Source of the DNA: Crocinitomicaceae bacterium
GTDB lineage: Bacteria > Bacteroidota > Bacteroidia > Flavobacteriales_D > Crocinitomicaceae
Direction of reading: 5' to 3'
Length of the DNA stretch: 51,259 nt
Assembly (NCBI GenBank): GCA_022447665.1
Contig: JAKVAQ010000019.1
Location: 28,827 to 80,085, forward strand
A model generated the notes under the pieces. The model saw only the letters and a program-made list of their open reading frames with translations. It was not told the origin of the DNA and searched no databases. A program made the position numbers and the translations under genes. Every line of letters starts with the position of its first letter. Position 1 is the first letter of the stretch. This document shows, in pieces, positions 38,323 through 47,092 of this stretch.

Positions 38323-41300
38323 TTATTGCAATACTATTCGCTCTACCACATTTCTATCTTCAGATAAAATATTGATAAAGTACATTCCTCTCTCTAAATT
38401 ACTTAGATCCACTTGTAATGAATTGTCGTTTGTGGGAATAAATTTGGCAGCTACCACCTGACCTGCAGCATTTAAAATTGTAATATTGTTCTCTGCAATC
38501 CCTTCTCCCATGATATTAATTAATCCTGAACTTGGATTAGGGAAAATAGAAATTTCAGCGTCATTCTCAATCTCTTCTGCTCCTAATTGACCGTCAACCG
38601 TCACTGTCAGTGATTCCTCTGAAGAACAACCTCCAGTAAATGAAGCTGTACATGTATACGTTGTTGTTACCACAGGAGAAGCTACTGGTGTCATACTCGA
38701 AGGATCATCTAAACCAGTTGCTGGTGTCCATAAATAAGTGTCTGCAGCACCGGTCACTGCTAATGTAGTTGATTCACCACCGATAATTGTAACATCACCA
38801 CTTAAGGTAATGGCTGGAACAGGCTCTGTATCTGCTAAAATCTCTACCCTTTCACTTACACAACCAGGCTCTCTTACATTCCAATCGTAGAAAAAATAGT
38901 AGTAATTTCCAGCATCTCCACCTGTTACATTATTGCCTGTAATTGAAACTAAACCAGGAATTGTATATGGGAAAGCGGTAGCAGCGTCATTATTTCTGTA
39001 CAACTCTACAAAGCCATCAATCGTCATCCAATACCCTGAATAAGCATCAATATCCCAGTTAAGCGTAACTACATTCTCTCCGGTAACAAGGTTAGCATCC
39101 ATTGTGTGTACTACTGAACCACCATCGCCGTCAAGAATTTGAATTGTTCTTGTTCCAGGCGATTCTGCATATACAGTGACTGAAATAAATTCAAATGGAG
39201 CTATCGCATCAAAGAATAATCCTCTAGTATCAAAATCGAAGTATCCCCCACCACCATATGTGTTATCAGCAGGCCCAACAGTTTGGATAGGATAATCAAC
39301 TAATTCTTCTACAAAATAAGAAGTCGGTGTTGAAATAACAGGATTATAAGTGGTTCCGGTATTTACTAACGTGCCTCCAATAGCATCATCATACCAGTTT
39401 AACGTTCCTCCTGTACCTGTAGCGGTTAAGCTTGCAGTGTATCCTGGGCAATCTATATCTCCAGTCCCAGTTGGAGCAGCCGGTTTATCCACTACAATAT
39501 AAGCAACCTCAGTATGCATATCAGTTCCTTCATCATTAGTCACTGTGAGCGTTACAGTATATGTTCCGTCTGCAGCGTAGGTGTAGGTCGGATTTTCATC
39601 AGTAGAAGTGCCAACGCCATCACCAAAATCCCATAACCATGAGGTTGGTGTAAAGGCAGATTCATCTTCAAATTCAACTTCTCCAGAACACGTAAATAAA
39701 GTGTTTGCAGAAAAGGCAGCGATTGGCGCGAAAGCAACCACGTCGTCACCACTCACCATTAAATCCGATACGAGAATAGACCCTGCAGCAGTTTCATCAA
39801 ACACGAATCGAATATATTCAATCTGCGTCATGTCAACTCCTGAAAAAGCTGATAAAGGAATCTTTACAGAGTTAGCCATAACTCTTGGAAGAGTTGTACC
39901 GATATCTCCAGGAGGCCAATATAAAGCAGTAGAGTGATCACTAACAAGTACACTACTAGAAGCGCCAGATAAATCAGTTAACTCTACTTTAAAGTCCTGC
40001 GCAAGTCCTGCAGGCGAATCATCAAAATTTACCGAAACTCTAAATTGTAATGCTTTGAACTGTGTTAAATCCTGCAGGTAATCCGGCAAATCATTTCTAT
40101 ACCAATCATCAGCACTATTCCACTCCATTTCGATTTGGCTTAATCCTAAATAGGTAACACTCCCCATCTTTTGGTGCGGCTGTTGTGATGCACCAGCAGT
40201 CATACAGTATTGCTCACCTAAGTCATCTCCACAAACATCGTAGCGTACTAGCCCATTTTGAGTAACCGCTTCTCCTAAATCGTTCGTAACCTCAGACCCT
40301 TCAGAATCTTGCGTATTAATAATTACACTCTTATTATAAGGTGGATGATACGTAACCCAAACTTCATCCTCAGTAATACCAGAAGACGCAGGAGGCACTA
40401 TACTATCCACTTGAAGAATTTGCGCGAATTCAGTTTCTCCACCAATATGGTATCTAAAGAAAGCACTTGCATACGCAGTTAATGATGTTTGCTGTTGTGT
40501 GTAAGATAATCTCCCAGAAGTTCCAGAACCAGAACCGCAATGAATATCGTTTTGTGCAGGGTTTACAAATCCCCAGTCATCAGAAGTTGCATATGAAAAT
40601 AAGGCTGGTGTCCAAAAAGTATTGTAGTAATTGTGGTTAGAACCAAATACTGTTACATTGTACTTTTCAGTAGTATCTTCATCCATTAAATAACGTGCGT
40701 CATCGTAAAAGTGAACACCTTGAAGGTCAGAAACATCTCCATCACAATAAGGAGCTAAATTTAGCACAGGAATACCGGTGAGAATAGGTCGATTAAAATC
40801 AACAGGAGCTAAGGTAAATACTGCATTCACTCCATAAGGTCTTCCTAAATCTTCGTTATACAATGCATGTGTAATTACACCTTCTCCTCCTCTTGAATGC
40901 CCGAGGGTACCAACATTGTTTAAGTCAAGCGCACCAAAGAAATCAGAGCCAAAAGGACCAGTTGCATCTGAAGTATTCCAACCATTCCAAAGATCTAAAT
41001 GATGCTGAATTAACTCAGCTCTAGCCTGCATACCATAATCTGGTGTCGAATTATCTGTAGCAGATATTGAATTTGCCGAAATTGAAATCACAATATATCC
41101 GTGACTTGCTAAATGATCTCCTAAAAAGTCGTAGCCATCATAACTAGGTATTCCTATAAAGCCGCCAGTTGGTGGCCAAGAGTTTGAAGTAGCCCCTGTA
41201 CCAGGGTTATACATTGCCGTATGTCTACCATGTAAAAGTAGAATTACGGGATAAGGTCCACCTGATAAATCTGTTGGATGATGAACCGACCCCACAACTT

Positions 41301-41457
41301 CAACATCAACAGGGAAAGTTGGTGGATCATATGCTTCATCTCCTAAATCATAGTACTGTTTTGTAACGGCTAATGGTCCTGGTAATCCTGGATCATCAAC
41401 CTGTGCAAATGAAATTCCAAAAAGAAAAGTAAATGCAAGGGCAAGTATCGTTTTCAT
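38323..41457 (-). CDS. T9SS-exported alpha/beta hydrolase with PKD and Ig-like domains
   Basis: 1044 residues with signal peptide MKTILALAFTFLFGISFAQ (start at 41457; ATGs at 41466 and 41475 are alternatives). The hydrolase domain (about 45-390) has ILLLHGRHTAM, a HGYIVISISAN strand and the nucleophile elbow GHSRGG near residue 186. A PKD domain (about 586-655, SWLWDFGDG) and an Ig-like domain (LNWYDDAIGGTLV) follow. The last 80 residues are a type A sorting tail (EISIFPNPSSG ... YFINI), so export is by T9SS to the surface or medium. It resembles PAF-acetylhydrolase/chlorophyllase-like esterases; substrate unknown. Confidence 0.87.
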   Translation of the reverse strand: MKTILALAFTFLFGISFAQVDDPGLPGPLAVTKQYYDLGDEAYDPPTFPVDVEVVGSVHHPTDLSGGPYPVILLLHGRHTAMYNPGTGATSNSWPPTGGFIGIPSYDGYDFLGDHLASHGYIVISISANSISATDNSTPDYGMQARAELIQHHLDLWNGWNTSDATGPFGSDFFGALDLNNVGTLGHSRGGEGVITHALYNEDLGRPYGVNAVFTLAPVDFNRPILTGIPVLNLAPYCDGDVSDLQGVHFYDDARYLMDEDTTEKYNVTVFGSNHNYYNTFWTPALFSYATSDDWGFVNPAQNDIHCGSGSGTSGRLSYTQQQTSLTAYASAFFRYHIGGETEFAQILQVDSIVPPASSGITEDEVWVTYHPPYNKSVIINTQDSEGSEVTNDLGEAVTQNGLVRYDVCGDDLGEQYCMTAGASQQPHQKMGSVTYLGLSQIEMEWNSADDWYRNDLPDYLQDLTQFKALQFRVSVNFDDSPAGLAQDFKVELTDLSGASSSVLVSDHSTALYWPPGDIGTTLPRVMANSVKIPLSAFSGVDMTQIEYIRFVFDETAAGSILVSDLMVSGDDVVAFAPIAAFSANTLFTCSGEVEFEDESAFTPTSWLWDFGDGVGTSTDENPTYTYAADGTYTVTLTVTNDEGTDMHTEVAYIVVDKPAAPTGTGDIDCPGYTASLTATGTGGTLNWYDDAIGGTLVNTGTTYNPVISTPTSYFVEELVDYPIQTVGPADNTYGGGGYFDFDTRGLFFDAIAPFEFISVTVYAESPGTRTIQILDGDGGSVVHTMDANLVTGENVVTLNWDIDAYSGYWMTIDGFVELYRNNDAATAFPYTIPGLVSITGNNVTGGDAGNYYYFFYDWNVREPGCVSERVEILADTEPVPAITLSGDVTIIGGESTTLAVTGAADTYLWTPATGLDDPSSMTPVASPVVTTTYTCTASFTGGCSSEESLTVTVDGQLGAEEIENDAEISIFPNPSSGLINIMGEGIAENNITILNAAGQVVAAKFIPTNDNSLQVDLSNLERGMYFINILSEDRNVVERIVLQ

Positions 41458-41467
41458 TCTATTCATC

Positions 41468-41893
41468 TTATTCATTTTCAGCAGTTTTTAGTGAAACAAC
41501 GCCATTTACCTTCCAATGCAGTCCTTCAAAACCGACAATTTGCTGACTTTCACCATCTTGTTTAGTATTGCTATCATACAGTCCGTAAACAAGAACCAAG
41601 TCACTTGAACCGTTAATTATTCCGAACTCATCAATCGGTATAAAAAATGTAATTTTCGTTACATCTCCACCTGGATGAGTATTCATTAAAAAGTATTTAG
41701 CACCAGAATGCAAAACATATCTATTGGCACCCACAATAAAGTTTGTATTACTACTTAAAGTAACTTCAACAATATCATCTTTTTGTATTGCCGACTCAAA
41801 AGAAATTTGAGTCTCTGTAGTGGCTTGATTTTGAGCAGCTACCAGTAAAGGAAGGAGCAAGATCAAAACGCCGAATCGCTTGAGCATCTTCAT
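41468..41893 (-). CDS. Small secreted protein preceding the T9SS hydrolase
   Basis: 141 residues. Signal peptide MLKRFGVLILLLPLLVAAQ; the mature 120 residues are beta-rich (ISFESAIQKDDIVEVTLSSNTNFIVGANRYVLHSG and KITFFIPIDEF), like an immunoglobulin-type or lectin-like sandwich. No family recognised. Its stop codon lies 10 bp before the hydrolase start on the same strand, so the two are surely co-transcribed, and it may be a partner or chaperone of the exported hydrolase. Confidence 0.6.
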   Translation of the reverse strand: MKMLKRFGVLILLLPLLVAAQNQATTETQISFESAIQKDDIVEVTLSSNTNFIVGANRYVLHSGAKYFLMNTHPGGDVTKITFFIPIDEFGIINGSSDLVLVYGLYDSNTKQDGESQQIVGFEGLHWKVNGVVSLKTAENE

Positions 41894-42540: not shown

Positions 42541-42548
42541 GTTCTTTG

Positions 42549-42556
42549 TAAATTTG
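42549..42556 (+). promoter_or_regulatory. -7 box (TAAATTTG) of the candidate non-coding RNA
   Basis: Exact TAnnTTTG match; the predicted first nucleotide is near 42561, directly before the first helix of the candidate RNA. No -33 TTG at the usual distance. Confidence 0.5.
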
Positions 42557-42559
42557 TAG

Positions 42560-42808
42560 TACAAGCACTACGCCGAGAGCGTTAAGTAGCTTTATTCGTT
42601 TCGACGGAGACCCACACAGCAAGTTTTTGGTTCTTAACAGTTATTACATTAGAGTCATCTTAGTGCTTAACAATGACAGGGCCCCAAGTCTCGATTATTC
42701 GGGATAACTTTTACGGAAGATAACAGGGGATTTCAGAACTTTGCCGGTAGCTCTAACCATTTTAGATTTAGAAGATTCCTAAAATGTAAAGTCTGAGTGG
42801 GTTTTTTT
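42560..42808 (+). ncRNA. Candidate structured, pseudoknotted non-coding RNA
   Basis: About 245 nt with no reading frame but dense complementarity. Helices I can trace: AAGCACTA (42563-42570) with TAGTGCTT (42661-42668); GTTAAG (42581-42586) with CTTAAC (42633-42638); a 5-bp hairpin with TTCG tetraloop (42595-42608); a 6-bp hairpin at 42689-42704; CATTTTAG/CTAAAATG (42758-42786). The segment 42608-42619 pairs with 42793-42804 (11 of 12, one A-A mismatch), crossing the first helix, so the fold is a pseudoknot. A run of T follows at the 3' end. It does not match tmRNA, RNase P or SRP RNA as I know them; could be 6S-like or new. Confidence 0.55.
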
Positions 42809-42862: not shown

Positions 42863-43630
42863 ATGAAAAAGATCGCATTATTAATTTTTAGCACTACTCT
42901 TCTTAATGGTATAGCTCAAGAAGAAGACATTACAGAAAAACTTCGAAAACACAGTATAGGAGTTGAGTTCGGAACTTATGTCGGTGCTATTCTGGGTAAC
43001 AATGTTAGAACCCACAAAACTTCAATTCAATACAAACACACTCTAAAGAATCCGGCTTGGTCATTCAGGGGAAGTGTAAATTACTCCGAACATTATAGTT
43101 GGTCTTGGACTACCGGAGACGTTGTGGCCCTGAGCGATAGTACAATGACATTTGAGAATAATGATTTTGGAACTTTAAACCTGTCTTCTACTGCAGGTGT
43201 TCAGCGAAGATTTGGTAAAAGTAAATTAACTTGGTTTATTGGAGGTGAAGCCATTCTCGGATTCTATAGAAGTTTGAGAACAGACAGGTTTAATGATCAG
43301 CAGTATACGATTGACACAACAAATAATAGCGTTGACTTGTCCACTGGTTTTCAATTTCAAGAAACTAGTTATCGTCAAACGGAGCGCACCTATCTTTCAA
43401 CCGGATTAGGCTTGATACTAGGCGCAGAATGGAAGCTAGCAAAAAGGTTTTCCTTTGGCGTTCAATCCAATATAAACTTTTTATACAACATTGGTTTAAA
43501 ATATAAATACACCACTATCGACTGGAGTGAAAATGAATCCATATCTAATTCTAGTGAGTCTGAATTAAATTCAACTTTTTTTTCGATAAATAGTTCTCCA
43601 GTATTACTCTATTTTAACTTTCATTTTTGA
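42863..43630 (+). CDS. Outer-membrane beta-barrel protein, unknown function
   Basis: 255 residues with signal peptide (MKKIALLIFSTTLLNGIAQ) and repeated amphipathic strands (IGVEFGTYVGAILG, SWSFRGSVNYSEHY, GTLNLSSTAGVQRRFG, LTWFIGGEAILGFYR, YLSTGLGLILGAEWKLAKRFSFGVQS) closing with LYFNFHF. This is a small porin-like barrel of the OMP_b-brl type; no specific ligand. The candidate RNA lies upstream and a bidirectional terminator follows. Confidence 0.75.
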   Translation: MKKIALLIFSTTLLNGIAQEEDITEKLRKHSIGVEFGTYVGAILGNNVRTHKTSIQYKHTLKNPAWSFRGSVNYSEHYSWSWTTGDVVALSDSTMTFENNDFGTLNLSSTAGVQRRFGKSKLTWFIGGEAILGFYRSLRTDRFNDQQYTIDTTNNSVDLSTGFQFQETSYRQTERTYLSTGLGLILGAEWKLAKRFSFGVQSNINFLYNIGLKYKYTTIDWSENESISNSSESELNSTFFSINSSPVLLYFNFHF

Positions 43631-45540: not shown

Positions 45541-45685
45541 CTTAATTACGTTGAATTTATAAATAAGTAAAAGAATTATGACTATTTCCGAGTCAAATAT
45601 TAGTGTACCTTACTAAATCGTTTTAGTTGTTACAATGCACGGTTTGGCTTAATCTTTGCTCTTTTTTTTAGAAGATCGCAATCTT

Positions 45686-47092
45686 ATGAAAACTCTATTT
45701 CTACTATCGCTAATGCTAATTAGCGCTTCTTCCTTTGCCATAACCCGTAGGTTTGTAAAATCAATAGAAAAAGTAAATCTTAATTACGACATCCGTCACT
45801 TGCAAAGAGGCTATAGATTAGACTTTTCCATAGATGTTTTAACAAATAAGGAAGTATTACACAACTCTTCCTCCTCTTTAAAGATTAATCTTAAAGACTT
45901 TAACATTACGGTTGAGGGCGATGGAACTCTTGTCAAAAAGAACAAACGAAGATTCACGGTAGGCATCCCTTATGAACTATCAGAAGAGGGAGAACTTATA
46001 ATCAAAGCAAACCTAATTAAGTTTCCAGAATACCGATACGAATTTGAATTACCCTTGACAGATTTTAGAGAAAAAATTATTGGCGTCGGTGTTGCCAATA
46101 TTGAAAACGATTTCATTGCAGGAAGGAGTTTACAATTAGCACTCTTTTGTGATATGCAAGATGGAGATATTTACAATACTTTTGATCGGTTTCCAAAAGT
46201 ATTTAATAGGGACTTCGAATTTGAAATTTCTGGGGCCGCTTATGCACTATCTTCAACAGGCAAAATAGCTATAGATTATACGAGTATTGAAGAAAATACT
46301 GTAAACATAAAAGCGACCCTAAGATCAAACCCCTCAATTTCGATATACAGAGAAATTCCCGTAAGCTATAATACGCAATACACCTTCAATTATTCAGCTT
46401 TGGACGGGTATACTGGGAGCGATGGAAGATGTGGGAGAGATGGGGCTTGTGGTGACGATGGACGCCACTGCACTTCTGAAAACGGAGATGACGGCAATAA
46501 CGGTAGCGACGGACAAGATGGTGAAGATGGTGACAACGGATACCATGCAAACAACGTGAGTGTTGAACTTACTTTAGTTCACCGTGAGAAAATTAAGGAT
46601 AGTTTACTTGAGGTCATTGTTCGTTCGTCAAATCAAATTACAACGCGCTACATAAGTTTAGAAGCTGGTTCACAAATTCAAATTTATGCGCATGGAGGTG
46701 ATGGCGGCGACGGTGGTGATGGTGGATCAGGAGGAGATGGAGGAAACGGTGGTGATGGTGGCTCAGGAACGGATGAAAAACCAAAAGGCAATGGTGGCGA
46801 TGGTGGTAACGGCGGTGACGGTGGGAATGGCGGAGACGGTGGACGTGGTGGAGATGGTGGTGATGTAAGTATCTATTACGATAAGTCGGCAGAGCCTTAT
46901 CTAAGCCTTATCAAAGTCTACAACCGCGGAGGTGATGGTGGTGCTGGCGGTGATAGAGGTTCACGAGGCGACTCTGGAGACGAAGGTGATGGTAGGTGTG
47001 ATGGAGATAATGGATCAAGCGGCAGATGCGGCTATTACGGTGATGATGGTCAGGATGGTCAAGACGGAAGAATTAGCTACGTTTTAAAGTAA
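45686..47092 (+). CDS. Secreted proline-free Gly-X-Asp repeat protein
   Basis: 468 residues from the ATG at 45686 with signal peptide (MKTLFLLSLMLISASSFA); the longer frame from 45656 is rejected. Residues about 25-235 are an Ig-like beta-rich region of unknown family. After that three Gly-rich blocks occur: one of Gly-X-Y triplets with Cys (GRCGRDGACGDDG, near 46410-46540), one of repeated GGDGGN/GGDGGS (46692-46866), and one again with Cys at 46927-47075. No Pro lies in the blocks, so a collagen triple helix is unlikely; polyglycine-II packing with Asp-mediated Ca binding is plausible. Convergent with hisIE. Confidence 0.75.
   Translation: MKTLFLLSLMLISASSFAITRRFVKSIEKVNLNYDIRHLQRGYRLDFSIDVLTNKEVLHNSSSSLKINLKDFNITVEGDGTLVKKNKRRFTVGIPYELSEEGELIIKANLIKFPEYRYEFELPLTDFREKIIGVGVANIENDFIAGRSLQLALFCDMQDGDIYNTFDRFPKVFNRDFEFEISGAAYALSSTGKIAIDYTSIEENTVNIKATLRSNPSISIYREIPVSYNTQYTFNYSALDGYTGSDGRCGRDGACGDDGRHCTSENGDDGNNGSDGQDGEDGDNGYHANNVSVELTLVHREKIKDSLLEVIVRSSNQITTRYISLEAGSQIQIYAHGGDGGDGGDGGSGGDGGNGGDGGSGTDEKPKGNGGDGGNGGDGGNGGDGGRGGDGGDVSIYYDKSAEPYLSLIKVYNRGGDGGAGGDRGSRGDSGDEGDGRCDGDNGSSGRCGYYGDDGQDGQDGRISYVLK
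46692..46866 (+). repeat. GGTGATGGNGGN-type coding microrepeat
   Basis: A 9-bp periodic run of Gly/Asp codons in frame with the secreted protein. Codon use varies (GGT, GGC, GGA), so the run is selected at protein level and is not a simple slippage tract. Confidence 0.6.

Follow-up and report, generated by a model that had tools for sequence, protein, structure and literature searches.

What kind of RNA, if any, is encoded between a SiaC-family gene and the ORF that follows it in a Crocinitomicaceae bacterium? The window, i.e., the whole stretch of DNA analyzed here, comprises 51,259 nt of contig JAKVAQ010000019.1 (assembly GCA_022447665.1), and the feature in question lies at 42549–42808. 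The original prediction described a gene for a structured non-coding RNA, with both a promoter-like box and a terminator-like end, and that description holds; it went on to propose a pseudoknotted, possibly switching molecule outside all known RNA classes. The sequence elements that it named are present. Across the 12 positions of the long-range pairing (42608–42619 with 42793–42804), 11 pair, one of them as G-U, and one is an A-A mismatch. The −7 box TAAATTTG is located at 42549–42556, the T run at 42802–42808, and the 5-nt strings GAGAC and GTCTC at 42607–42611 and 42688–42692, respectively. The upstream gene is indeed of the SiaC family (PF09345, E 1.7e-24), and the downstream ORF (42863–43630, 255 aa), which is on the same strand as the RNA, has no Pfam match at E 0.001. 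Further away in the window, a 478-aa ORF at 45656–47092 (+) contains long glycine-rich GGDGGDGG repeats and weakly resembles the collagen repeat of Pfam (24.8 bits, below the cut-off of 27.2), and a 1050-aa protein at 38323–41475 (−) combines PKD with Ig-like domains, carries a Por secretion tail at its C terminus, and matches PET hydrolase-like below threshold (26.1 bits, cut-off 28). A scan of viral contigs with the SiaC-like protein found nothing.

Single-sequence folding of the window RNA gave a z value of −0.56, with its stability equalled or exceeded in 60 of 200 shuffles, and folding of the opposite strand gave no signal (z 0.29). Because the fold is no better than chance, the pairings seen in the window sequence alone prove nothing, and relatives had to decide. 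A homologue search, which had been proposed with the original prediction, found them across the GTDB family of the window by BLASTN and covariance models. BLASTN against 59 genomes, including the window's own, located the RNA in six genomes of four genera. Covariance model R1, built from these six sequences and a nested structure, was run on 200 genomes of the family, to which Crocinitomix algicola belongs, and matched 108 of them, in 22 of 24 genera. The match was single in 106 genomes and double in two; two of the best matches were weak (E 5.9e-4, and a partial one at 0.023). The other 92 family genomes gave no R1 match, and these misses do not prove absence because only 12 candidates per genome were scored. 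A second model, R2, built from 30 family sequences only, extended the search to the order: it matched 88 of 199 genomes in 36 of 62 genera and found one place in the window's genome at E ≤ 0.01. When 30 genomes without a match were searched again with R2, the RNA was found in one and again not in 29. Sixteen of these 30 genomes belong to genus g23 and are mostly near-complete (e.g., G022, G062, and G075), and none of the 16 matched R2; the exception in the genus is G211, which has a strong R1 match. In the non-matching genomes, including most of genus g23, the RNA is absent through loss or too diverged. The gene is stand-alone, usually single-copy, and present in most genomes of the lineage, with 92 of 200 family genomes unmatched.

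The features of the locus, as deduced from the window and its relatives, are as follows.

42549–42556 (+): −7 box TAAATTTG, matching the consensus TAnnTTTG
42563–42592 (+): 5′ hairpin H1 of the single-sequence fold; pairing in the 14 close sequences 82.1% of cells for one half and 64.3% for the other
42595–42608 (+): 5′ hairpin H2, stem TTCGT/ACGGA with a TTCG loop, holding TTTCGACGG; pairing and covariation in relatives
42609–42804 (+): 6S RNA core by R2 (135.5 bits, E 2e-27; the window sequence is one of R2's own 30 training sequences)
42611–42619 (+): 5′ strand of closing stem P1, partner 42793–42801; pairing in the window, covariation
42629–42635 (+): 5′ strand of inner closing stem P2, partners 42772–42776 and 42778–42779; covariation
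42636–42648 (+): 5′ strand of the central bubble, putative pRNA template; no consensus pairs in the gap from P2 to P3
42649–42756 (+): terminal stem overall, consensus fold
42649–42655/42750–42756 (+): P3 of the terminal stem
42665–42668/42741–42744 (+): P4 of the terminal stem, with only two of four pairs in the window
42674–42676/42733–42735 (+): P5 of the terminal stem
42682–42685/42726–42729 (+): P6 of the terminal stem
42686–42725 (+): variable apical part of the terminal stem
42757–42771 (+): 3′ strand of the central bubble; likewise free of consensus pairs, from P3 to P2
42793–42801 (+): 3′ strand of P1; pairing and covariation
42802–42808 (+): T run after P1, terminator-like end; a T run also follows P1 in the family loci printed

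The runner-up R2 match within the window reached 8.9 bits only. P2 of the window contains one unpaired position (T42631–T42776).

The conserved structure is nested. In the six-sequence alignment, it pairs in 93.1% of cells (88.2% in shuffled alignments), the value falls to 46–49% when the structure is slid by one column, and two-sided changes occur at 10 of 34 pairs. The 30-sequence alignment reaches 94.5% (81.7% shuffled) with two-sided changes at 24 of 34 pairs, and the 14 closest full-length sequences, with the 5′ part included, reach 86.0% (78.1% shuffled) with such changes at 23 of 50 pairs. In the joint alignment A7 (40 sequences), which like A4 was fitted to its own model, so that the counts lean towards that model, 92.4% of cells pair versus 70.3% in shuffles. 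A7 combines the window with 18 family loci (out of 30), three loci of the order, and 18 Rfam-marked loci. Because its forerunner A6 held three antisense matches (L041, L032, and L037; E 0.0067–0.015), the search was repeated at E 0.003; rod-like RNAs can give such antisense matches. A7 is without L074, which was a source in both searches and passed neither threshold, and L053, L047, and the duplicate L068 were not put in. Among the 40 sequences, P1 pairs in 98.8% and P2 in 98.1% of cells, with two-sided changes at all nine and all seven pairs, respectively, whereas P3 (84.5%) and P5 (80.0%) are weaker. The letters of P1 vary from CCCAUG/CAUGGG to GCCGCA/UGCGGC with pairing kept. RNAalifold on alignment A2 found P1, P2, and P3 unaided. 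Alignments A3 and A5 were made by sequence alone, with structures chosen after viewing an alignment; one of five measures on A3, further pair types, was not above shuffles (20 versus 20.3), and P4 and P6 pair in 43.8% and 69.8% of cells on A5, in part because gaps fall there. The covariation expected of the long-range helix is thus observed, as P1 is paired with two-sided changes in relatives. Taken together, the RNA is a rod of closing stem, central bubble, and interrupted terminal stem, kept by covariation.

The proposed pseudoknot is not conserved. Only its long-range helix persists, as the closing stem P1, the core of which has 8 of 9 pairs in the window and is complete (9 of 9) in each of 13 close homologues. 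The helix that would cross it, which we identified as 42563–42570/42661–42668 (the original prediction gave no coordinates for it), forms 8 of 8 pairs in the window but only 1–5 of 8 in these homologues, and pairs in 34.6% of cells versus 32.7% for shuffles. The GAGAC/GTCTC switch, which would compete with the closing stem, has 5 of 5 pairs in the window and 0–3 of 5 in the 13 homologues, and we do not retain it. Both helices are complete in the window only, and neither is kept in homologues. The perfection of both in the window, the lack of any Rfam family reached by it, and its weak P4, which would leave 42661–42668 partly free, could be read as signs of a novel pseudoknotted or switching class, in which 42563–42570 crosses the closing stem to 42661–42668 or GAGAC/GTCTC competes with that stem. 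We regard this as highly improbable: the homologues keep neither helix, the crossing helix scores at shuffle level, the 42563–42570 segment doubles as the 5′ strand of the retained hairpin H1, and the RNA is homologous to 6S models, as described below.

A stretch recalling tmRNA had also been pointed out. The letters TTTCGACGG are present, but they form the loop and 3′ side of H2, the stem letters of which are quite different in relatives. ARAGORN finds no tRNA or tmRNA gene in the window, in agreement with the predicted absence of tRNA-like ends; neither a tRNA-like domain nor a match to RF00023 is found here. The tmRNA of the genome is on another contig (C29:12074–12479), as is its RNase P RNA, and the generic 6S model RF00013 has no match in the genome at E ≤ 10. 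tmRNA, RNase P RNA, and generic 6S RNA in the sense of RF00013 were rejected as the identity of the locus.

Rfam itself yields no family at its cut-off in the window, where RF01685 (6S-Flavo) and RF01693 (Bacteroidales-1, "6S-Bacteroidales RNA suggested") are unmatched even at E 10. To this extent the RNA matches no known class, as claimed; through intermediate relatives, however, it joins a known one, 6S RNA. A forward test used 10 of the 30 family loci, all more distant members. End-to-end matches to the RNA came from RF01693 in seven loci (best E 0.0012) and from RF01685 in two (L029 and L030), together eight of 10 at E ≤ 1 and all below cut-off; neither model matches L033 or L038. Of five close relatives, two (L003 and L007) have an RNA that aligns with RF01685 over the full length, at chance-level E values (0.22 and 1.2); another place in the L003 sequence gives a better value (0.026) with an unrelated family. 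In searches of eight whole genomes, the best RF01685 match is this RNA in G008 and G030, and the weak matches in the window's own genome are located away from it.

The reverse test started from matches of the two Rfam models at E ≤ 0.01 in 149 genomes of the class. RF01685 marks nine loci, none over cut-off, and RF01693 marks 13, four over cut-off; as one place (L048 = L068) is common to both, these are 21 distinct loci, one of which (L067) is from a genome of the window's own family. R2, which contains no sequence from them, matches all 21 at the same place and on the same strand (E 2.8e-16 to 0.023), and its remaining four matches are at E 2 to 5.1. R1 matches seven of the nine RF01685 loci. 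Therefore, the RNA is homologous to the RNAs behind both Rfam entries, i.e., to the 6S-type RNAs of the phylum. Because the curated cut-offs (85 bits for RF01685 and 60 bits for RF01693) are both missed, with family members scoring up to 33.7 and 41 bits and L067 42.5, we file it as a homologue of the two and under neither. The cut-off of RF01685 is exceeded by no genome in our samples of 59 and 149.

The likeness to RF01693 consists of the full-length alignment with family members. Its four loci over cut-off are all matched by R2; they share the nested helices, and their closing stem is followed by a T-rich end. They differ in that the TAnnTTTG box is 14–17 nt from the core, whereas it is 48–60 nt away in the window's family, with two hairpins between. 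The window itself is unmatched by RF01693, and that model leaves P1 and P2 unpaired. RF01685 resembles the RNA by end-to-end alignment with L003, L007, L029, and L030, and all nine of its loci are matched by R2, but the scores are only 28.6–33.7 bits against 85. Its model has 108 positions and a short apical loop, and lacks P1, H1, and H2. Covariation of the closing stem extends over both families, and yet P1 and P2 are unpaired in each of the two models as printed; for this reason, RF01685 and RF01693 look like one family. RF00013, the E. coli ssrS type, has the same plan of closing stem, central bubble, and terminal stem. The anatomy of the RNA is that of 6S RNA. We conclude with high confidence that the locus is the 6S RNA gene of a bacterium from the GTDB family that contains Crocinitomix, and hence belongs to a known class.

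6S RNA, a regulator of wide distribution, is believed to keep RNA polymerase idle as growth slows, and the 5′ strand of its bubble is the pRNA template. Here, we propose how the RNA may act, by analogy with that class. The sigma-A-type box at 42549–42556 would drive a transcript of about 245 nt, starting near 42562, that probably consists of two 5′ hairpins, closing stem, central bubble, and interrupted terminal stem, and ends at the T run after P1. The bubble would mimic an open promoter and hold the housekeeping (sigma-A) RNA polymerase when growth slows. The polymerase may then copy the 5′ bubble strand into a short pRNA and thereby be released. Transcription, polymerase binding, and pRNA synthesis are predictions in this scheme, while the conserved, covarying RNA with 6S architecture, homologous to the RNAs behind the Bacteroidota 6S-type Rfam models, is observed. 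Wehner and colleagues are said to have dealt with Bacteroidetes pRNAs in 2014. Weinberg et al. (2010; PMC2864571) defined 6S-Flavo and, in a passage of that paper, count it among RNAs functioning as a validated class. No paper joining "6S RNA" and "Crocinitomi" was found in the open-licence literature.

A conserved housekeeping RNA of Bacteroidota, homologous to 6S-Flavo and Bacteroidales-1 and having a function other than that of 6S RNA, would also fit the homology. The wording of Rfam for RF01693 goes no further than suggesting 6S-Bacteroidales RNA, and the B. thetaiotaomicron 6S RNA described in PMC7366714 may lie outside RF01693. Nevertheless, we consider such a different function very unlikely. 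Passages in PMC7366714 and PMC9723704 report 6S RNA and pRNAs in Bacteroides thetaiotaomicron and 6S RNA in Flavobacterium psychrophilum, respectively; the RNA has 6S architecture, and no RF00013 6S RNA occurs in the genome. The B. thetaiotaomicron RNA, as presented in those passages, shares the phylum and the proposed function with the RNA described here.

The genomic context differs among relatives. In all 13 close relatives (L003 and 12 others, L015–L028 without L022), a class-I glutamine amidotransferase gene, which we take to be of the trpG/pabA type, ends upstream on the same strand (PF00117 in L003), and in nine of them a transglycosylase-domain gene lies downstream, convergent to the RNA (PF01464 in L003). 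At the window's locus and at 16 more distant ones, neither gene was found up to 1.5 kb away. Since the amidotransferase neighbor is found in 13 of 13 relatives and not in the window, either the 6S gene or its neighbor has moved in the window's genome. The RNA is upstream of ORF 42863–43630 on the same strand and TTTCGACGG recalls tmRNA, as would suit a 5′ leader of this ORF or a tmRNA fragment. Close relatives, however, have other neighbors (13 of 13 upstream and 9 of 13 downstream), and thus the RNA does not travel with the ORF; it also ends in a T run of its own, and a full tmRNA is present on contig 29, with none found by ARAGORN in the window. A leader or a tmRNA fragment is therefore extremely improbable. 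For the 6S RNA gene, the changing context suggests that the RNA acts in trans.

The 5′ part distinguishes the window's lineage. The promoter consensus TAnnTTTG was taken from a passage of PMC9723704. Of 36 family loci, 35 have a box with 5 or 6 of its 6 letters on the 5′ side of the core, at a distance of 48–60 nt; in 500 shuffles, the mean was 3.9 and the maximum 10 loci. Perfect boxes are found in 13 of the 36 loci, against a shuffled mean of 0.4. In six loci of two other families of the order, the box is at 48–50 nt in 5 of 5 loci of family f3 and at 29 nt in the single locus of f13. The H2 stem averages 4.97 bp over 30 loci versus 2.45 bp in shuffles and reaches at least 5 bp in 16 of 30, and in the 14 close sequences it pairs in 94.1% of cells with two-sided changes at four of five pairs; H1 is less regular. 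The window's lineage thus appears to start the transcript about 40 nt earlier and to add two hairpins. Separately, the motif GTTCTTT lies no more than 60 nt upstream of the 6S core in 9 of 20 class loci, against 0.12 on average and 2 at most in shuffles; its bearers in other families include L046, L051, L052, L066, and L070, and none of 36 family loci has it in this interval. The copy in the window (42541–42547) ends 61 nt upstream of the core and adjoins the −7 box. This motif may be a promoter element or a boxA-like signal.

These results are chiefly of specialist interest, concerning a missing annotation in a lineage, the link between two Rfam entries, and a 5′ hairpin extension. None of the 59 related genomes reaches the 6S-Flavo cut-off, yet the RNA is present in 22 of 24 genera of the family. 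The sequences that bridge the two separate Rfam entries point to an improved consensus in which P1 and P2 are paired, which should help 6S RNA annotation across Bacteroidota. Our tentative view, held at somewhat less than even confidence, is that the Bacteroidota 6S RNAs form one family with a covarying closing stem, one branch of which added a two-hairpin 5′ domain that alters 6S processing, stabilization, or handling of the polymerase. This branch comprises the window's family and probably the neighboring family of the order, in which the box spacing is the same in all five loci. The extra 5′ hairpins represent a testable lineage-specific change in a well-studied regulator.
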